DNA from: a virus | Direction: 5' to 3' (one strand) | DNA: 33,580 bases | Virus record (IMG/VR): IMGVR_UViG_3300019776_000311 | Span: 1-33,580 of that record | Part shown: positions 4,066 to 33,580 of the stretch, piece after piece | How positions within the stretch are numbered: position 1 is the stretch's first letter | How the letters are laid out: the number at the start of each line of letters is the position of its first letter | Notes under the pieces: generated by a model | Seen by the model: only the letters and a program-made list of their open reading frames with translations | Database searches by the model: none | What the model was told of the DNA's origin: nothing | Made by a program: the position numbers and the translations under genes

Positions 4066-4377
4066 TTAATCCCTTAATGCGTTAATGATTTGATCAATCG
4101 CGGTTCCGTTCATTACTTGTTCTGTGGTAAACCGCAATACCACAAATCCCATCAAGGCGGCTTGGTTATATTTTTCGAGGTCTTTGATATAGCCTGAACC
4201 CCTTGTGTGTCTGCCTCCGCTCCATGTGGCTCCTTCCACCTCTATTGCTATGTTGCGCTCTAACATGAAGTCAAAGCGCCATTTGCGTTTGGGGTGGAAT
4301 TTGTACTCACGGGTGAAAGGTATTTTAAACACAGTTAAATGCTGTGCTAGTATTTCTTCACCCTTGCTTTTTTTCAT
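4066..4377 (-). CDS. Putative PD-(D/E)XK / DUF559-like endonuclease
   Basis: The 103-aa product has an early acidic residue (GEE, 6-8), RFDF with D36, and IAIEVEG with E46/E48. This follows the E...D...ExE pattern of small restriction-endonuclease-fold proteins (Vsr/DUF559-like). GFVVLRFTTEQV near the C-terminus is also typical of that fold. It could act as a Holliday-junction or repair nuclease beside the replication genes. I place the start at ATG 4377, inside the end of the RHH gene. A longer frame back to 4461 exists, but its extra residues lie in the real coding frame of the RHH protein. Catalysis is inferred from motifs only. Confidence 0.65.
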   Translation of the reverse strand: MKKSKGEEILAQHLTVFKIPFTREYKFHPKRKWRFDFMLERNIAIEVEGATWSGGRHTRGSGYIKDLEKYNQAALMGFVVLRFTTEQVMNGTAIDQIINALRD

Positions 4378-4498
4378 CGTCACGCACCAAGTCGCTAATG
4401 TATTCGCTCTGTGACTTCTGCGCCTTTTTTGCCAGCTTTTTAATAAGCTTAATGACATCAAAACGCAGATAAAACTGCTTTCTTTTTCCCCTCAGCAT
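4358..4498 (-). CDS. Small ribbon-helix-helix-like DNA-binding protein
   Basis: The 46-aa frame begins at ATG 4498 with AAGGGGAAAT upstream. It reads KRKQFYLRFDVIKLIKKLAK then KAQKSQSEYISDLVRDD: a short basic beta strand followed by two helices, the layout of Arc/MetJ-type repressors that act as dimers. It is the first leftward gene after the divergent control region at 4511-4569 and overlaps the nuclease gene by 20 bases. The natural guess is that it regulates its own promoter and the recombination operon. The fold is inferred from sequence pattern. Confidence 0.7.
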   Translation of the reverse strand: MLRGKRKQFYLRFDVIKLIKKLAKKAQKSQSEYISDLVRDDEKKQG

Positions 4499-4510: not shown

Positions 4511-4551
4511 GTGTGTTGACATTGGTGTGTAGTGTTGATATGTTTACACAC
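4511..4551. promoter_or_regulatory. Operator-like repeats in the 4.5 kb switch
   Basis: GTGTGTTGACAT (4511-4522) and ATGTTTACACAC (4540-4551) form a 10/12 inverted repeat that brackets the rightward promoter. GTGTTGACAT (4513-4522) and GTGTTGATAT (4532-4541) are a direct repeat (9/10) 19 bases apart, covering the -35 and the bases up to the -10. Such placement would let a dimeric repressor block both divergent promoters. The adjacent RHH protein is an obvious candidate binder. Confidence 0.5.
4516..4544 (+). promoter_or_regulatory. Rightward promoter of recombination operon
   Basis: TTGACA (4516-4521), a 17-base spacer and TATGTT (4539-4544, 4 of 6), with transcription expected near 4551, just upstream of the ERF gene (AAGGA Shine-Dalgarno, ATG 4578). 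The -35 is perfect and the spacing ideal. Its -10 overlaps that of the leftward promoter. Confidence 0.65.
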
Positions 4552-4569
4552 ACTAACGCAACTAGTCAA
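4541..4569 (-). promoter_or_regulatory. Leftward promoter overlapping the rightward one
   Basis: Minus strand: TTGACT (4564-4569, 5 of 6), 17-base spacer, TAAACA (4541-4546, 3 of 6). Transcription would begin near 4534 and run into the RHH and nuclease genes. The two -10 boxes overlap on opposite strands, so polymerase cannot occupy both at once. Confidence 0.45.
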
Positions 4570-4577
4570 GGATATAT

Positions 4578-5171
4578 ATGCAAAGCGAATCAATCAACGA
4601 ATTAGCCACTGCACTTGCTAAGGCTCAGGCCAAATTTACCCACGCGCAGAAGGCTGTTAAAAACGAGTTTTTCAAATCCAACTATGCAGACCTTCCGGCT
4701 GTAATGGACGCAAGCCGCGCCGCACTGGCGGAAAATGGCCTTTGTGTGATTCAGTCCACCACCGTCAAGGACAATGGGGACATTCTATTGATCACCACGT
4801 TGGCACATTCCAGCGGCCAGTGGGTAAGGGGTGAATACCTTGTTAAGCCAGTCAAAGCAGACCCACAGAGCTGTGGCAGTGCCATTACCTACGCCCGCCG
4901 TTATGCGTACTGCGCTATGGTAGGGGTGGCCGCCATTGACGAAGATGATGATGGTAACGCAGCCAGCCAATCCAAGAATAAGTCAGCAGATACCGCCGAG
5001 CAGCCAATAGATACCGAAAAAGCTGTAGAAATTGATTTGCTTATTACTGAAGTTAAGGCCGATAAAGCTGCATTCCTTGGTTATTTTAAGATTGATGACG
5101 TGAGAAAACTTAAGGCAAAAGACTACGCCGTTGCCAAGTCTATGCTACAACGCAAAGCGGGGACGGCATGA
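4578..5171 (+). CDS. erf: ERF-family single-strand annealing protein
   Basis: This 197-aa protein belongs to the P22 Erf family of recombinases, which anneal complementary single strands and may circularise incoming DNA. The diagnostic block GSAITYARRYA lies at about residues 100-110, followed by DEDDDGN at 121-127. The N-terminus (LATALAKAQAKFTHAQKAVK) is also typical. The C-terminal third is a variable linker and a small helical domain. It is the first gene of the rightward operon, with an AAGGA site before ATG, and its stop overlaps the exonuclease start (ATGA). Confidence 0.93.
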   Translation: MQSESINELATALAKAQAKFTHAQKAVKNEFFKSNYADLPAVMDASRAALAENGLCVIQSTTVKDNGDILLITTLAHSSGQWVRGEYLVKPVKADPQSCGSAITYARRYAYCAMVGVAAIDEDDDGNAASQSKNKSADTAEQPIDTEKAVEIDLLITEVKADKAAFLGYFKIDDVRKLKAKDYAVAKSMLQRKAGTA

Positions 5172-5776
5172 TTCAGGGGTCACAAGATTGGTTTGCTCAA
5201 CGAGCTGGAAAAGTAACCGCCTCGCGTATTGCCGATGTAGTGGCAAAAACCAAATCCGGCTGGTCTGCTAGCCGTGATAATTACGCTGCCCAGCTAATAG
5301 CAGAGCGTTTAACGGGTGTAGTAGCTGATACATTTACCAATGCGGCAATGCAATGGGGTACTGAAACAGAGCCGCAAGCGAAAGCAGCTTATACGCTGTT
5401 TACGGGCAGAGTCATACAAGACGTTGGGTTTGTGCCACACCCCTCTATTCCAATGTCAGGCGCATCGCCAGACGGACTAGTAGAAGACAATGGCCTTGTG
5501 GAAATTAAATGCCCAAACACTGCTACTCACCTTGAAACTCTTTTGGGTTCCGCAATAGACGGAAAGTACATTAAGCAAATGCAGTGGCAAATGGCCTGCA
5601 CAAATAAAGCATGGTGTGATTTTGTATCATTTGACCCACGACTTCCGGTTAATATGCAGTGCAAAATAATCCGTGTAGACCGTGATGCCGAATTGATTGC
5701 ATTACTTGAAAAAGAGGTGGGTGAATTCCTCGCTGAGATCGAAGCCAAAATCAAACAACTAAATGAAAGGTATTAA
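5168..5776 (+). CDS. YqaJ/lambda-exonuclease-family recombinase nuclease
   Basis: The 202-aa protein should resect double-stranded ends 5' to 3' to give ssDNA for the ERF protein. Motifs of the YqaJ family are in place: QDWFAQRAGKVTAS near the N-terminus, WGTETEP (63-69), SPDG with D102, and VEIKCP with E112 and K114 forming the PD-(D/E)XK centre, then KQMQWQMA (136-143). Length is normal. It overlaps ERF by 4 bases; its end overlaps an alternative ATG of the next gene, so the cassette is probably translated as a unit. Confidence 0.93.
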   Translation: MIQGSQDWFAQRAGKVTASRIADVVAKTKSGWSASRDNYAAQLIAERLTGVVADTFTNAAMQWGTETEPQAKAAYTLFTGRVIQDVGFVPHPSIPMSGASPDGLVEDNGLVEIKCPNTATHLETLLGSAIDGKYIKQMQWQMACTNKAWCDFVSFDPRLPVNMQCKIIRVDRDAELIALLEKEVGEFLAEIEAKIKQLNERY

Positions 5777-5777
5777 A

Positions 5778-6014
5778 ATGAATTTTAAGGTTAGCATGAA
5801 AATCAACGGGAAATGGCAAACCGTAGGAAACATAAAAAAGAACAAATACGGCAATATGTCGCTTGGCTTAATGAAAAAACCCGAAGTGCTTGAAGCCCTA
5901 AAGGGCGATGGATGGGCAAACTTTGCGCTATTTGAAGATCAAAAGAAAGACGACACTAAACAAGAATCATTGATAGCAGATGCGACTATATTAGATGACG
6001 ATCTGCCATTTTGA
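5778..6014 (+). CDS. 78-aa protein with SSB-like acidic C-terminal tail
   Basis: The product starts MNFKVSMKINGKWQTVGNIK, contains strand-like segments (YGNMSLGLM, WANFALFED), and ends ILDDDLPF. The last six residues match the conserved C-terminal tip of bacterial SSB (DDDIPF), which docks RecQ, RecO, PriA, Exo I and others. It follows the annealing protein and exonuclease directly. I infer either a minimal OB-fold ssDNA-binding protein or a mimic that recruits host SSB partners. The start at 5778 is chosen for the GAAAGG eight bases upstream; ATG 5763 lies inside the exonuclease end. Confidence 0.75.
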   Translation: MNFKVSMKINGKWQTVGNIKKNKYGNMSLGLMKKPEVLEALKGDGWANFALFEDQKKDDTKQESLIADATILDDDLPF

Positions 6015-6016
6015 CC

Positions 6017-6337
6017 ATGATTGACGTAAACCAACTATACGAAAAACTTGTAAAATCTGGCGAGGACTGGGCGCATAAAAACGCCGCCGCCGACATACTG
6101 GAGGAGTCTAAAAAACCCATTCTCAGCCAGATTATGCAGGACTATCAGGGAAGCCACGCCGCCAAGGAATCATTGGCACTGGCAGACCCCAGATATACCG
6201 ATCACCTCAAGACCATGGTGGAATCCCGCAAGGAGGCCAACATTGCAAGGGTGAAATGGGAAGCGCAGAAAATGTACGTTGAGTTAACCAGAACCAAAGC
6301 CGCATCCGAAAGAGCGGCAAATAAGGAGGCAATGTGA
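6017..6337 (+). CDS. Conserved helical protein of the recombination operon
   Basis: The product (106 aa from ATG 6017) is charged and largely helical: SGEDWAHKNAAADILEESKK near the N-terminus, VESRKEANIARVKWEAQKMY in the second half, and ERAANKE at the end. It resembles an uncharacterised family commonly found beside ERF/Exo genes in prophages of proteobacteria. No catalytic motif is visible. A TTG at 6011 overlaps the previous stop and is an alternative start. It may be a helical accessory to recombination, but no function is established. Confidence 0.7.
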   Translation: MIDVNQLYEKLVKSGEDWAHKNAAADILEESKKPILSQIMQDYQGSHAAKESLALADPRYTDHLKTMVESRKEANIARVKWEAQKMYVELTRTKAASERAANKEAM

Positions 6338-6507
6338 CCGCGCTAGAACAAGGCAATCGCCGCGCTGAGATCAACGGCCAACGTGTAGCGTTCTATCGTA
6401 TGTCAGGCAGGATAAGGCGTACCAAATGCCCGATATGGTGGGTTGATACCGAATCGCCAGAGCTACTAGCAGCCGATTGGGTATTCAGGGCTAAATTGCC
6501 TAACTAA
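6334..6507 (+). CDS. 57-aa basic protein, GTG start
   Basis: A perfect Shine-Dalgarno AAGGAGG (6323-6329) lies four bases before GTG 6334, and GTGA overlaps the previous stop. The product is basic and aromatic (QRVAFYRMSGRIRRT, then CPIWWVDTESPELL) and looks like a small beta-barrel-like domain. No family recognised. It ends the recombination operon and overlaps the end of the convergent HTH gene by 8 bases. Confidence 0.75.
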   Translation: MTALEQGNRRAEINGQRVAFYRMSGRIRRTKCPIWWVDTESPELLAADWVFRAKLPN

Positions 6508-6871
6508 GTGGTAAGTTTTGATCGTGGAAATCCCATTTAATCACCTTTGGGGCTTTCACGATCTTGACTTGCTTTTTGTACTGGTTGACCGCTTTGTATA
6601 CCCACGATTCCGACACATTCAGGCGCTTGGCAATCTGGGGGATGGTCTTGCCCTTGTTAAATAGCTTGTTGGCTTCTTTGGTCTTGTCATTAAATTCCTT
6701 CAGGGCTTTTTCGCGTTTGCTCAGCTCTGCCTTGATGTTATAGCGCAATATTGCCCTACTTATGGCTCCTTCTGGCACGCCAAACTTTTCCACCATATCC
6801 ATGATTTTATAGCCCTTGTTGAGCATGTCCTGTATCTGCGGAATGAGGGCTTGCCAATCGTATTTAGCCAT
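6500..6871 (-). CDS. Double helix-turn-helix regulator
   Basis: The 123-aa protein has two HTH-like segments: residues about 12-42 (MLNKGYKIMDMVEKFGVPEGA) and about 70-96 (FNKGKTIPQIAKRLNVSESW). They are joined by a Lys-rich helix, and a basic tail (KKQVKIVKAPKVIKWD) follows. This suggests a sequence-specific DNA binder, such as an antirepressor, activator or small terminase-like protein. It overlaps the end of the Cro-like gene by 8 bases and shares its transcript. AGGGTGA lies about ten bases before the ATG. Confidence 0.7.
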   Translation of the reverse strand: MAKYDWQALIPQIQDMLNKGYKIMDMVEKFGVPEGAISRAILRYNIKAELSKREKALKEFNDKTKEANKLFNKGKTIPQIAKRLNVSESWVYKAVNQYKKQVKIVKAPKVIKWDFHDQNLPLS

Positions 6872-7046
6872 TTGAGTTGATCACCCTAAGCAGTCGAGCA
6901 ATGGTTTCACCTTGCGTGCGGAAAGTTTTTCCCTTCATGATTCGCCACAAGGTGCTTTTTGTTAGCTTGGTGCGTCTGCATAATTCTGCCTGACTTCCGG
7001 CTTTTTCGATAGCAAGCTCCAGTATTTCAATGATATTGTGCGTCAT
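6864..7046 (-). CDS. Cro/YdaS-like small HTH repressor
   Basis: The 60-aa protein starts MTHNIIEILELAIEKAGSQA. It holds an HTH of the Cro/YdaS type: AELCRRTKLTKSTLWRIMKG (20-39). It is the right size for a Cro-like dimer. I place the start at ATG 7046. A frame back to 7133 runs through the divergent promoter region and is unlikely to be protein, although no strong Shine-Dalgarno precedes 7046. It is transcribed away from the accessory operon and should bind the 7.07-7.12 kb control region, perhaps also the sister region at 4.5 kb. Confidence 0.75.
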   Translation of the reverse strand: MTHNIIEILELAIEKAGSQAELCRRTKLTKSTLWRIMKGKTFRTQGETIARLLRVINSNG

Positions 7047-7061: not shown

Positions 7062-7067
7062 TTGTTG

Positions 7068-7096
7068 TTGACAATAGGCTGCGTATGCTTTAGATT
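7068..7096 (+). promoter_or_regulatory. Rightward promoter of accessory operon
   Basis: TTGACA (7068-7073), a 17-base spacer and TAGATT (7091-7096, 4 of 6), with initiation near 7103 and the first gene at GTG 7135. An 8-bp inverted repeat, TTGTTGAC (7065-7072) and GTCAACAA (7116-7123), flanks it and could be a repressor operator. The layout copies that of the 4.5 kb promoter. Confidence 0.65.
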
Positions 7097-7120
7097 TACA
7101 CATAGTTAAAACAAAGTCAA
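7093..7120 (-). promoter_or_regulatory. Leftward promoter for HTH regulators
   Basis: Minus strand: TTGACT (7115-7120), 16-base spacer, TAAATC (7093-7098, 3 of 6). It would drive the Cro-like and double-HTH genes. Its -10 overlaps the rightward -10 at 7091-7096, as in the 4.5 kb region. The -10 match is poor, so the call rests partly on the likeness between the two regions. Confidence 0.4.
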
Positions 7121-7134
7121 CAAAGGAGTGCAAA

Positions 7135-7491
7135 GTGGTAGATATAGACTTAGAAAAACCTTATCAGGACACGCTGGAAGAGGGCGAACTGTTTGACCAC
7201 TACGCCAACATCGAAACCAAGGAGCTATGGTACAGCTTCCAGACAGAAAGCAAAGCCAGCGAGTTTGTTGATGACTATATCAGCGACCCCAACGGCATGT
7301 TGGCAAAGGTTATACAGATTGTGGCGGAGGCGCAAGACGGGATAGCGTACAACCCGGGCGAGGCTGGCATGTTCAGGCGGTTGGCATACAACAAGATAAG
7401 CTTTCTTTTGGATGGCATCATTAGGCCGCGCGCCGAAAGCATTGCAGAAATGCGCATGGAATCCGGAGCATATGAGGAGGACGGAAGATGA
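7135..7491 (+). CDS. Acidic 118-aa protein, first gene of accessory operon
   Basis: AAAGGAG (7122-7128) precedes GTG 7135 by six bases. The product is acidic (DIDLEKPYQDTLEEGELFDHY at the N-terminus; ESGAYEEDGR at the end) and mostly helical, with no known motif. As first gene of an early operon, a small acidic protein could be a DNA mimic or host-takeover factor, but that is a guess. Its stop overlaps the next start (ATGA). Confidence 0.75.
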   Translation: MVDIDLEKPYQDTLEEGELFDHYANIETKELWYSFQTESKASEFVDDYISDPNGMLAKVIQIVAEAQDGIAYNPGEAGMFRRLAYNKISFLLDGIIRPRAESIAEMRMESGAYEEDGR

Positions 7492-9656: not shown

Positions 9657-9683
9657 ACGAAAAAACCAAACGGAGTGATGCGA

Positions 9684-11870
9684 ATGACAAACACCGCAAT
9701 AAACATTCAAGAATACAATGATTTTCTAGCAAAGAAAAATTCCCGCTACGAGTGGCAAGGAATAGAGTCAGCTAGTTTAGCTGGTTGCTTATTTGACTAC
9801 CAAAAAGCAATAGTAAACTGGGCGCTACGCCGTGGCCGCGCAGCAATATTTGCTGATTGCGGATTGGGAAAGACCCTAATGCAATTAGAATGGGCGCGGG
9901 CGGTTCATGCACATACAGGTCAAAGGGTTTTGATTGTCGCGCCTCTAGCAATTTGCGAACAAACCAAACGCGAAGCATCTAAATTTAATTTGGATACTTC
10001 ATTTTTTGATATCATCAATTATGAGCGACTTCACACAGTAACCCCATCTGATTATTCTGGCGTTGTGCTGGACGAATCAAGCATCATTAAGTCGTTCTCT
10101 GGTAAAATACGCAATCAGATCATTGAATTGTTTTCTGACACTCAATTTAAATTGGCTTGTACTGCAACGCCATCACCAAACGACTACATGGAGCTTGGCA
10201 ACCACGCTGAGTTTCTTGGTGTTACATCATACACCGAAATGCTTGCCATGTACTTCATCCATGACGGAGGCGAAACATCCAAATGGCGACTTAAAGGCCA
10301 CGGAGCGGTTAAGTTTTGGGAATGGCTCTGCACTTGGGCAGTATTTGTGCGCCAGCCCAGCGATATTGGATTCGCTGGCGATAATTTCGAGCTTCCGCCA
10401 TTAAATCAATACAAGCACTGCATCGATGATTATGCCGTGGCTTCCACCGATACATTAATCCCATTGGCCGTTGCGGGTTTGTCTGAGCGTATTTCGCTTC
10501 GCAAGGATACGGTGGCTATTCGCATGCAGAAAGTGGCAGAACTTGCCAGATCAATGGACAGCCCTGTTATCATATGGTGTGACCTTAATGCTGAAGCTGA
10601 CGAATTAAAGCGATTACTACCAGAAGCGGTAGAAATTCGCGGCAACGATAAAGACACCATAAAAGCAGATCGCATATTAGATTTTGCAGACGGTAAAATT
10701 GACATTCTGATTACTAAGGGGGAAATAGCCGGATTTGGCTGCAATTTCCAATCATCGCACAATATGATTTTTGCCAGCGTCAACGATAGCTATGAGTCGT
10801 TTTACCAATGCGTAAGAAGGCAATGGCGATATGGTCAAAAGCATCCCGTAAATGTGCATTTGGTTTACACAGAGCGCCAGCAGACAATTATTGAAAACCT
10901 TGAAAGAAAGCATGATCAAATGGAAGAAATGGCAGCACAGATGACCGCAACCACCAACAAGCTAACCCAAGCTGAATTAGCTGGCGGCAAAACAGATAGC
11001 TATGTAATCGACGCGCAAGACATTGTAACGCCGGATTACCATATCACGCTAGGCGATTGTGTTACGGGTGTTGCGGGTCTGCCGGATGAATCCATTGACT
11101 ATACCATATTCAGCCCTCCATTTGCTTCGCTTTACACTTATAGCAACAGCCCAAATGATATGGGGAACTGCACCAGCGAGGATGATTTTGCGCGTCACTT
11201 TGGATACCTTGTCAAAGACCTTTTTCGCGTCATCCGCAACGGTAGGCTGGTGTCGTTTCATTGCATGAATTTACCGTCATCTATACAAAACGATGGTTTT
11301 ATAGGCATTAAAGACTTCAGGGGCGACCTTATACGCATGTTTCAGGCGGCGGGTTTTATCTACCACAGCGAAGTGGTCATATGGAAAGACCCTGTAACCG
11401 CCATGCAGCGCACTAAGGCTCTAGGGTTATTGCACAAGCAGATTAAAAAAGATTCGTGCATGTCAAGGCAGGGCATCCCGGATTACTTGGTAACCATGCG
11501 TAAGCCCGGAACAAATACAAAGCCTAACAGTCACACAGCAGAGGAGTTTCCAGTAGATTTGTGGCAGCAATACGCTAGTCCCGTTTGGATGGATATTAAC
11601 CCCTCCGATACTTTGCAATTCCGCGAGGCACGTGAATCTGATGACGAGCGCCACATTTGCCCGTTGCAGCTTCAGGTTATTGAGCGGGCCATTAATTTAT
11701 GGTCTGCCAAAGGCGATACAGTGCTTTCGCCGTTTATGGGAATTGGCAGCGAAGGTTATGTGTCAATCAAGATGGATCGCAAGTTTCGTGGTTTTGAGCT
11801 TAAAAAAAGTTATTTTGAATTGGCCGCTAGGAATCTTGAGTCGGCAAAGAAGCAGCTGACGCTTCTTTAG
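9684..11870 (+). CDS. Helicase-DNA methyltransferase fusion
   Basis: The 728-aa protein joins two enzymes. The N-terminal ~420 residues are an SF2 (SNF2/DEAD-like) ATPase: Walker A DCGLGKT (58-64), LDES (129-132), TATPSPND (160-167) and QCVRRQWRYGQ (375-385). Residues ~440-728 are a beta-class (permuted) amino-methyltransferase: catalytic SPPF (477-480) comes before the AdoMet motif SPFMGIGSEG (682-691) and FELKKSYFELAARN near the end. SPPF fits N4-cytosine or N6-adenine methylation. Likely role: modifying phage DNA against host restriction, with the ATPase tracking DNA, as with other helicase-methylase phage proteins such as P1 DarB. GGAG lies eight bases before ATG 9684. Confidence 0.92.
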   Translation: MTNTAINIQEYNDFLAKKNSRYEWQGIESASLAGCLFDYQKAIVNWALRRGRAAIFADCGLGKTLMQLEWARAVHAHTGQRVLIVAPLAICEQTKREASKFNLDTSFFDIINYERLHTVTPSDYSGVVLDESSIIKSFSGKIRNQIIELFSDTQFKLACTATPSPNDYMELGNHAEFLGVTSYTEMLAMYFIHDGGETSKWRLKGHGAVKFWEWLCTWAVFVRQPSDIGFAGDNFELPPLNQYKHCIDDYAVASTDTLIPLAVAGLSERISLRKDTVAIRMQKVAELARSMDSPVIIWCDLNAEADELKRLLPEAVEIRGNDKDTIKADRILDFADGKIDILITKGEIAGFGCNFQSSHNMIFASVNDSYESFYQCVRRQWRYGQKHPVNVHLVYTERQQTIIENLERKHDQMEEMAAQMTATTNKLTQAELAGGKTDSYVIDAQDIVTPDYHITLGDCVTGVAGLPDESIDYTIFSPPFASLYTYSNSPNDMGNCTSEDDFARHFGYLVKDLFRVIRNGRLVSFHCMNLPSSIQNDGFIGIKDFRGDLIRMFQAAGFIYHSEVVIWKDPVTAMQRTKALGLLHKQIKKDSCMSRQGIPDYLVTMRKPGTNTKPNSHTAEEFPVDLWQQYASPVWMDINPSDTLQFREARESDDERHICPLQLQVIERAINLWSAKGDTVLSPFMGIGSEGYVSIKMDRKFRGFELKKSYFELAARNLESAKKQLTLL

Positions 11871-12538: not shown

Positions 12539-12754
12539 ATGGGAGAGATGAGTAGAGAATTGATAAGCCAGCTGGCAAAAGCAAAAGCCCTTTTCCAGCA
12601 ACGCGCCATTTGCGCGGCAATAAGAATCGAATACCCCGCAAGCCTCTGCCAAGCTCCATGCGAGGCACACGCCAACCAGTGGTTGGATGCTCAAACTGTC
12701 AGCATGAATCAACATGCTGCGCCTGTGGACGCACAGGATGGGGGTGCAAAATGA
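12539..12754 (+). CDS. 71-aa hypothetical protein
   Basis: The frame from ATG 12539 (or 12548) encodes MSRELISQLAKAKALFQQRA, then a Cys/Ala-rich middle and an acidic end. Its stop overlaps the ATG of the PP-loop gene (ATGA), which supports translation. The N-terminal phrase SxxLIxxLAxAKA is echoed by the broken gene at 13551-13706. Both starts have a purine-rich site, so the exact N-terminus is uncertain. Confidence 0.6.
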   Translation: MGEMSRELISQLAKAKALFQQRAICAAIRIEYPASLCQAPCEAHANQWLDAQTVSMNQHAAPVDAQDGGAK

Positions 12755-13554
12755 CCTCAACCATCACGAACATCAGCGCACCGCGCATCATATGTTGGTT
12801 TTCGTGCGGTGCCGCCAGTGCCGTGGCCGCAAAGCTGGTGCTGCAGAGCAATGACGAGCGCATGGCCGGACGAGAGATCGTTATAGCACGTAACTGGATA
12901 GCGGAGGAACACCCCGACAATGACCGCTTTGAACGCGAGGTATCGGAATGGCTTGGCTATCCCATAATCCATGTGACCAATGAAAAATATAATGGCTCAG
13001 TTTTTCAGGTGCAGGATGATGTTAAATTTATCAAGCACCCCAAAAGCGGGGGCGCTCCCTGCACCCGTTTGCTCAAAAAAGAGATGAGAAAGGCATACCA
13101 GCGCCCAGGCGATATTCATGTATTTGGTCTGCATGTAGGCGAGGAAGATAGGGTTGACCAATTCCTAGATGACGAACCAGGGGTGAAGGTGTGGTTTCCT
13201 CTTATAGAGGCCGGACTCACAAAAATGGATTGCCACCAGATAATTTCAAAGGCCGGTATAGCAATGGCTGCGATGTACCGCCTTGGTTACGACAACAACA
13301 ACTGTATCGGCTGTGTTAAGGGCGGTATGGGTTATTGGAACAAGATAAGGAGGGATTTTCCGGATGCTTTTGAAAAAATGGCGAAGCAAGAAAGAAAGCT
13401 GGGCCACAGTATTTGCAAGAAAGAAATTTGCGTTGGTGGTCGGCGTATATCATGCCCTGTATTCCTTGACGAATTATCAGTAACAGACGGTCGCCCCTAC
13501 AGCGATGAGCCGCCGATCAAATGCGGAATAATTTGTGAAAGGCCAAACGCATGA
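12751..13554 (+). CDS. PAPS-reductase-like PP-loop family protein
   Basis: The 267-aa protein belongs to the phage branch of the phosphoadenosine-phosphosulfate reductase family (N-type ATP pyrophosphatase fold). The PP-loop is WFSCGAASAV (16-25), a variant of SGGxDS. EHPDN (53-57), GAPCTR (101-106), NNNCIGCVKGGMGYW (182-196) and a later Cys cluster (C222, C227, C235, C258) follow. Relatives activate a substrate with ATP and move sulfur; the phage branch has no proven reaction. Candidate roles are thiolation of nucleic acid or sulfur scavenging. The ATG at 12751 overlaps the previous stop; a longer frame to 12610 lies in the preceding gene. Confidence 0.85.
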   Translation: MTSTITNISAPRIICWFSCGAASAVAAKLVLQSNDERMAGREIVIARNWIAEEHPDNDRFEREVSEWLGYPIIHVTNEKYNGSVFQVQDDVKFIKHPKSGGAPCTRLLKKEMRKAYQRPGDIHVFGLHVGEEDRVDQFLDDEPGVKVWFPLIEAGLTKMDCHQIISKAGIAMAAMYRLGYDNNNCIGCVKGGMGYWNKIRRDFPDAFEKMAKQERKLGHSICKKEICVGGRRISCPVFLDELSVTDGRPYSDEPPIKCGIICERPNA

Positions 13555-16806: not shown

Positions 16807-17050
16807 GATCTCCCCCTACGCACAATGCCATGGCCAGCCGTGTGATGGCTAGGTTTAGGTGCTTTTCACCGTCATCGCGCACTACTTTAAGCAATATCAT
16901 CAAAGCAGTAGTTGCGTGCCGTATGCCTTTTGTGATATGATAGTGTTTCGGCCTGTCGCGCCAATCTTCCCCGTTCCCGTCTTTGTTACTGCCCATAGTC
17001 AGGGCTTCCACAATAGCCTTACAGGCTTCTACGCTTGGGTCTGGTTTCAT
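16796..17050 (-). CDS. 84-aa protein resembling DUF5664 (dATP/dGTP diphosphohydrolase-like)
   Basis: ATG 17050 follows AAGGGG by seven bases and overlaps the exonuclease stop (ATGA). A helical core reads DWRDRPKHYHITKGIRHATT, then ALMILLKVVRDDGEKHLNLA and ITRLAMALC. The spacing of W..R..H...RH...H is reminiscent of DUF5664 proteins, some of which are called dATP/dGTP diphosphohydrolases, but the acidic metal-binding residues are not obvious. The assignment is tentative. Confidence 0.6.
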   Translation of the reverse strand: MKPDPSVEACKAIVEALTMGSNKDGNGEDWRDRPKHYHITKGIRHATTALMILLKVVRDDGEKHLNLAITRLAMALCVGGDHAE

Positions 17051-17973
17051 TGCTTGCCCCTTGGAAAAGTTGACCAACTGCCACAATCCTTACACAAATA
17101 ACGGTGGCGCATACTGGAGGCGACATACTCAAATCCCCTATGCTCGATATGGGAACTGCCACACGCCTTGCATCTTTGCAGCGGGTCGTCGGTCAATAGG
17201 TTAAGGTTCAGCTTGCTCTTGACGTAGGGGAGCATGGCCTTGAACACCTGAGCCAGCAGTTCAACGTCCTGCACGTTGTACTCGGCCATTTTGCGTAGGG
17301 CTTCCTTGTCGCCGGACGCGCACCCCACCCACAGATCCGCGCTGGTTTTGATCTTACTGCCCACGCCAAGGATAGTGCCGAGGTGGTCGAGCTTGTTGCC
17401 ATTTAGAGAGCGCCCAAAGTGCAGCTTGGCCAGCTTATAGGTGCAGATGTCGTTGACAGGCGGCAGGGAGGGCAACCCATTGGCCATAAGCCTTGCGGCG
17501 ATAAATGGCTTATCAAAACGCGAATAATGCGCCACTACATAATCCGCCTTGCTCCATTCCAGCAGGAAGTCGCGCAACACCTTTTTGTCATCGTATGGCG
17601 CATCAACAACCAATACATAGGTTTCTGGCTCGCCAAGCCATTTGTAGGCTATGGTGCAGACAGATTTAGGCTTAAGGATGAAGTCCAGCGGTATAGACCT
17701 GTCGGATATGGTATCCCAGAAGTATCCAAGGTTAGGCAAAGTTTCGATGTCATAAACCAATATCTTAGGCCGCTTTTCTGACTGCGTATCATCGGGTATT
17801 TTAAAGCGCGGTACGTTTGCTGGTACGGTGTGCTTTTGGAGCGTTTGCGCCAGCTCCCAATTCCTTATCGTGTCGCGCTTAATTCCGGTTTCTCTGGATA
17901 TGCTGCGCCGTGATTCACCAGCTAGGATACGGGCAAGGATAGCGGCTTTGACTTCTGGGGTGTAGGGTGTCAT
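17047..17973 (-). CDS. HTH - DEDD 3'-5' exonuclease - zinc ribbon fusion
   Basis: The 308-aa protein has three parts. Residues ~8-45 (AAILARILAGESRRSISRET then IKRDTIRNW) are a transposase-like HTH. Residues ~68-258 are an RNase H-fold exonuclease of the YprB/RNase_H_2 type: YDIETLP (D75, E77), AHYSRFDKPFI (D154), NDICTYKLA (D175) and YNVQDVELL (D236). Residues ~265-300 hold C268xxC271 ... C294xxC297, a zinc ribbon. The core family is frequent in phages, where it lacks a proven role; proofreading or nucleic-acid degradation is expected. GGAG lies seven bases before the ATG. It sits unexpectedly between lysozyme and spanins. Confidence 0.88.
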   Translation of the reverse strand: MTPYTPEVKAAILARILAGESRRSISRETGIKRDTIRNWELAQTLQKHTVPANVPRFKIPDDTQSEKRPKILVYDIETLPNLGYFWDTISDRSIPLDFILKPKSVCTIAYKWLGEPETYVLVVDAPYDDKKVLRDFLLEWSKADYVVAHYSRFDKPFIAARLMANGLPSLPPVNDICTYKLAKLHFGRSLNGNKLDHLGTILGVGSKIKTSADLWVGCASGDKEALRKMAEYNVQDVELLAQVFKAMLPYVKSKLNLNLLTDDPLQRCKACGSSHIEHRGFEYVASSMRHRYLCKDCGSWSTFPRGKQ

Positions 17974-33481: not shown

Positions 33482-33580
33482 ACCGTTTTATTGTGAATAA
33501 TAACACACCACAAAACGGCTTGCTATTTTTTACGACCAGCCAGCCCCTACAAATTCAATAGATGGTATTGGCTTCTTTGC
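33482..33580. repeat. Right copy of 99-bp terminal identity
   Basis: Identical to bases 1 to 99. It carries the leader of the portal gene and the last codons of the large terminase (33530-33580), showing that the two genes are adjacent on a closed circle. Confidence 0.95.

Follow-up and report, generated by a model that had tools for sequence, protein, structure and literature searches.

The window analysed here is the whole of IMG/VR viral record IMGVR_UViG_3300019776_000311 (positions 1 to 33,580; 33,580 bases), and its ends carry an exact direct repeat of 99 bases. Because bases 1-99 recur at 33482-33580, the record probably represents a complete genome, with 33,481 unique bases, and this same end repeat indicates that the long leftward gene block continues through the record ends. 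This is a P22-like phage, with matches to P22/Sf6-type podoviruses among its portal, head, and terminase genes. There are two clear divergent gene junctions in the window, 4498/4578 and 7046/7135, and the two sequences considered here, site 1 and site 2, lie exactly at these junctions (Table 1).

Table 1. Gene blocks, predicted promoter elements, and neighbouring genes at the two divergent junctions.
Feature	Coordinates	Strand	Support
Leftward gene block	4498 to ~49, then across the repeat 33513 to ~16115	-	
Rightward gene block	4578-6507	+	
Leftward gene block	7046-6500	-	
Rightward gene block	7135 to ~15891	+	
46-residue ribbon-helix-helix (RHH; Arc/CopG-like) regulator, nearest gene to the left of site 1	4358..4498	-	
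Site 1, putative bidirectional promoter, TTGACA-N17-TATGTTTA-N17-AGTCAA	4516..4569	.	sequence, scan, L132 47/54
Site 1 predicted rightward promoter: -35 TTGACA, 17-bp spacer, extended -10 TGA-TATGTT	4516..4544	+	
Site 1 predicted leftward promoter: -35 TTGACT (4569-4564)	4540..4569	-	sequence, L132
Operator candidate, perfect inverted repeat GTGTGTA-N13-TACACAC	4525..4551	.	sequence, L132
ERF single-strand annealing recombinase, nearest gene to the right of site 1	4578..5171	+	Pfam ERF E 1.8e-26; phrog_2324 E 4.6e-44
YqaJ-type exonuclease, next after ERF in the rightward recombination unit	5168..5776	+	Pfam YqaJ E 7.7e-27
123-residue HTH protein (resolvase/homeodomain-like), second gene of the site 2 leftward unit	6500..6871	-	Pfam HTH_23 E 2.2e-10
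60-residue Cro/C1-type helix-turn-helix protein, nearest gene to the left of site 2	6864..7046	-	
Site 2, putative bidirectional promoter, TTGACA-N17-TAGATTTA-N16-AGTCAA	7068..7120	.	sequence, scan
Inverted repeat TTGTTGAC / GTCAACAA with its centre at the shared -10 of site 2, made up largely of the opposed -35 boxes	7065..7123	.	
118-residue protein, first gene of the site 2 rightward accessory unit	7135..7491	+	

Site 1 is bordered by the RHH gene on its left and the ERF gene on its right, and site 2 by the Cro-like gene and gene 7135, respectively. The assignment of the 46-residue protein as Arc/CopG-like draws on several modest matches: phrog_3887, a transcriptional regulator family (E 8e-5); RHH_1 (E 0.012; 16 bits, below the Pfam cut-off of 20.5); and Arc itself in a PDB profile search (E 0.63). 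Arc and CopG were also the top Foldseek matches to its model (TM ~0.7, but E 0.5-0.8), superposing with an rmsd of 0.5-0.8 over 33 residues, although no N-terminal strand was seen in the monomer model. The 60-residue protein scores above the cut-off of 22 for Pfam HTH_26 (23.6 bits; E 6.3e-5), and its model (pLDDT 87) is an all-helical, four-helix HTH, so that profile and fold agree on the Cro/C1 type; the closest folds were HipB and the DNA-binding domain of P22 c2 (TM ~0.65, E above 0.3). Profile matches and models thus bear out the original prediction that small DNA-binding genes adjoin both sites. A search for family matches to the 118-residue protein found none.

Several other genes of the window were also assigned. 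For example, the end of the RHH gene is overlapped by the start of a gene for a small endonuclease-like protein (4066-4376, minus strand; phrog_503, weak DUF559). Farther along, a helicase and a DNA methyltransferase are fused in a single protein of 731 residues (9675-11870; phrog_16 and phrog_67), and a phosphoadenosine phosphosulfate reductase-like protein (12610-13554; phrog_424) is a candidate accessory metabolic gene. Finally, an exonuclease of the DNA polymerase exonuclease subunit type (17047-17973, minus strand; phrog_403) has an N-terminus resembling the HTH of a terminase small subunit family (phrog_1482, E 6e-4).

The two junctions share a distinctive geometry. As had been predicted, TTGACA begins at 4516 and at 7068, in each case with a 17-base spacer; TTTACACA follows at 4543 and 7095, 27 bases past the start of TTGACA; and AGTCAA is found at 4564 and 7115, 21 and 20 bases past the start of TTTACACA. 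The 35-base pattern TTGACA-N17-TA(TG/GA)TTTACACA occurs within the 33.6 kb record at these two sites only. When both strands are read, the layout common to the sites is that of two overlapping sigma70-type promoters that have the octamer TANNTTTA in common, giving the composite form TTGACA-N17-TANNTTTA-N17/16-AGTCAA. The TTTA within this octamer belongs to both opposed -10 boxes, with TANNTTTA read as TANNTT rightward and as TAAANN leftward. The rightward hexamers are TATGTT at 4539 (site 1) and TAGATT at 7091 (site 2). At site 1, the rightward promoter matches the consensus at 10/12 positions and has a TG before its second hexamer, with a predicted start near 4551; its leftward counterpart would use TAAACA (17-bp spacer) or AAACAT (18-bp spacer) as its -10, with a predicted start near 4533. 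For site 2, the corresponding predictions are near 7103 (rightward) and 7085 (leftward). The TGTG ahead of the leftward -10 was considered as an extended -10 and dropped, as it is one base off register for the TAAANN reading. Usable -35 boxes thus lie at 16-18 bp to the left and right at both sites, and the opposed, overlapping -10 boxes of the original prediction are present at each, flanked by good -35 boxes.

This arrangement closely recalls the bacterial bidirectional promoters described by Warman, Grainger, Wade and colleagues, in which a -10 is shared, divergent starts are commonly 18 bp apart, and simultaneous polymerase binding is sterically prevented (PMC12825309, PMC10268837). Like those promoters, the phage sites have a near-symmetric shared -10 and reciprocal A/T at -11/-7 (TATGTT/AAACAT at site 1 and TAGATT/AAATCT at site 2), although the latter is weak on its own because any TANNNT has this property. 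Their divergent starts are predicted to be 17-18 bp apart, within the 7-25 bp that defines the bidirectional sigma70 class. Judging from the overlap of the -10 boxes and from the precedent (PMC12825309), two polymerases probably could not sit together at either site. Unlike the bacterial examples, the putative phage promoters have a near-consensus -35 in both directions (TTGACA/TTGACT), which strengthens the assignment and is not required by the published class, and the genes driven would be those of a phage rather than of the host. Sites 1 and 2 are probably further members of this known promoter class.

An alternative is that only the rightward promoters are real, with AGTCAA and the leftward -10 boxes being chance or other signals and the genes to the left being transcribed from elsewhere. 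The window's leftward -10 boxes are indeed weak, with consensus matches at just 3/6 positions. The window was scanned on both strands with a plain sigma70 consensus, which may not be that of the host, a shared octamer, and spacers of 16-18; sites 1 and 2 ranked first and second with 18/24 matches each, the next best reaching 16/24. Dinucleotide shuffles gave 0.015 expected hits at 18/24 or better per shuffle, a significance inflated perhaps ~3-fold because the octamer (-10) offset was derived from the sites themselves. Two such cases in one genome argue against the rightward-only reading.

Further evidence on this point comes from L132 (IMGVR_UViG_3300017785_003076), the sole true relative recovered from a collection scan of viral contigs. 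It keeps the RHH gene (76% identical), the leftward endonuclease-like gene, and the ERF gene (82% identical over the N-terminal 130 residues). Its site 1 reads TTGACA-N17-TAAATTTA-N17-AGTCAA, retaining both -35 boxes, both spacings, and the shared -10, here a perfect palindrome that gives TAAATT in either direction (TAAATT/AAATTT for the reciprocal -11A/-7T). Site 1 is identical to that of the window at 47/54 bases (87%), as compared with 18/54 (33%, near saturation) at the fourfold-degenerate sites of the adjoining ERF gene, a difference that shows site 1 to be under selection. The original expectation that the pattern would be conserved in relatives is thus borne out for site 1 in L132, the only relative identified; the L132 contig ends ~1 kb past site 1, before site 2, and the comparison covers site 1 only. 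AGTCAA and its 17-bp spacing have been kept where unconstrained positions are nearly saturated, and the leftward -10 of L132, TAAATT, improves to 4/6. Together with the scan, these observations make it unlikely that the rightward promoters alone are functional, and both sites probably fire in both directions.

Near this junction, the endonuclease-like protein is 58% identical in L132. Comparison of L132 14601-14831 with 5168-6014 of the window places a relative of gene 5778 directly after ERF, the YqaJ exonuclease gene being missing, and the C-terminus of the L132 ERF is not clearly alignable to that of the window.

Conservation at site 1 extends beyond the promoter boxes. The bases kept in L132 include GGTGTGTAGTGTTGA and CACACAC-N-AACGCAA, which hold the perfect GTGTGTA...TACACAC repeat, and both direct copies of GTGTTGA that accompany the candidate operator (at 4513 and 4532) are likewise intact. 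Of the 21 occurrences of the half-site GTGTKKA across the window, site 1 contains four and site 2 none. This tally is descriptive, as the motif itself was derived from site 1, but L132 retains the site 1 copies.

The sites were originally proposed to be flipped together by a single regulator, which would read the TTTACACA and AGTCAA composite at both and switch both units at once. This part of the prediction did not hold up. Outside the promoter boxes, the two sites match at 12/33 positions (P ~0.12), the longest matching run being four bases (CACA, P ~0.10), and the rightward spacers agree at 4/17. This likeness is no more than chance, and the sites therefore resemble two promoters of one class; no common operator was found outside the boxes. 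The inverted repeat conserved in L132 and the GTGTTGA copies were sought at site 2 and are absent, and the genes to the left of the two sites encode unrelated small regulators (RHH versus Cro-type HTH). Common regulation could find some encouragement in the CACA that follows the octamer at both sites and in three 6/7 matches to GTGTKKA within site 2, of which two overlie -35 boxes. Nevertheless, a single protein reading both sites appears quite improbable. A linked circuit, in which the Arc/CopG-like protein would set polymerase direction at both by acting on a strong site 1 and on degenerate half-sites at site 2, is a longer shot still; if true, recombination would be coupled to the accessory genes through one small repressor.

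Several searches went beyond the window. When viral contigs were scanned for TTGACA-N17-TANNTTTACACA, 62 stretches were returned, of which L132 was the one true relative; the others were set aside, as they have neither the RHH/ERF context nor AGTCAA at 20-21 bases, and many apparently lie in coding sequence. A search for composites carrying the two -35 boxes gave 13 stretches, with the divergent RHH/ERF pair in L132 only. The combination of TTTACACA with AGTCAA at 20-21 bases was found outside the window only at site 1 of L132, which also speaks against a regulator that reads this composite. Other ERF relatives (33-60% identical) have ERF mostly inside operons, lacking the junction seen here, and are therefore uninformative on site 1. 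Relatives of the Cro-like protein, the RHH protein, and gene 7135 were also sought, yielding only L132 and L086, the latter with a partial match to the Cro-like protein and without the site. A megablast against phage records gave no match.

The descent of both sites from the duplication of one promoter region would account for their identical order of elements and similar spacing. However, there is no similarity beyond the boxes, and the neighbouring regulators are unrelated; for want of similarity outside the boxes, this explanation was rejected, and it is hardly credible.

Taken as a whole, the evidence favours a reading in which the sites are two bidirectional promoters of the sigma70 type, each with its own regulator, and look alike because both belong to this promoter class and not because one protein reads both (probability of roughly 0.7). 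At each site, two consensus-like -35 boxes would face a single, nearly symmetric -10 region, TANNTTTA, on which polymerase could load either way, one at a time. Transcription to the right of site 1 would serve the ERF-YqaJ recombination genes, and that to the left the Arc/CopG-like gene, the first of a long leftward block; site 2 would serve the accessory genes rightward and the Cro-like/HTH pair leftward. Control is most likely separate, with the Arc/CopG-like protein acting at site 1 and the Cro-like protein at site 2. The former would bind GTGTGTA/TACACAC over both site 1 promoters and repress both, its own gene included, and the latter would do likewise at site 2 with a different operator.

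Such an arrangement has familiar counterparts among phages. The pR/pRM region of lambda, with Cro and CI, is a divergent switch governed by small autoregulated repressors, and the present phage resembles it in having closely spaced divergent promoters with a small repressor gene first on one side; unlike lambda, neither a CI-like repressor nor a three-operator array was recognised in this phage. The site 1 protein resembles Arc of phage P22 and CopG in size and in the palindromic DNA that lies over a promoter, and, going by its model, may do so in fold as well. Arc belongs to the immI region of P22, whereas the gene of the site 1 protein faces the ERF recombination unit.

The two sites leave the picture of phage regulation unchanged. 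They do provide a compact natural example of phage divergent junctions that appear to be built as two-way promoters, each direction having a good -35 box, and they add a conserved operator candidate that an Arc/CopG-like protein might use. On short pieces of this DNA, it would be easy to test how opposed polymerases compete and how a small repressor controls that competition.
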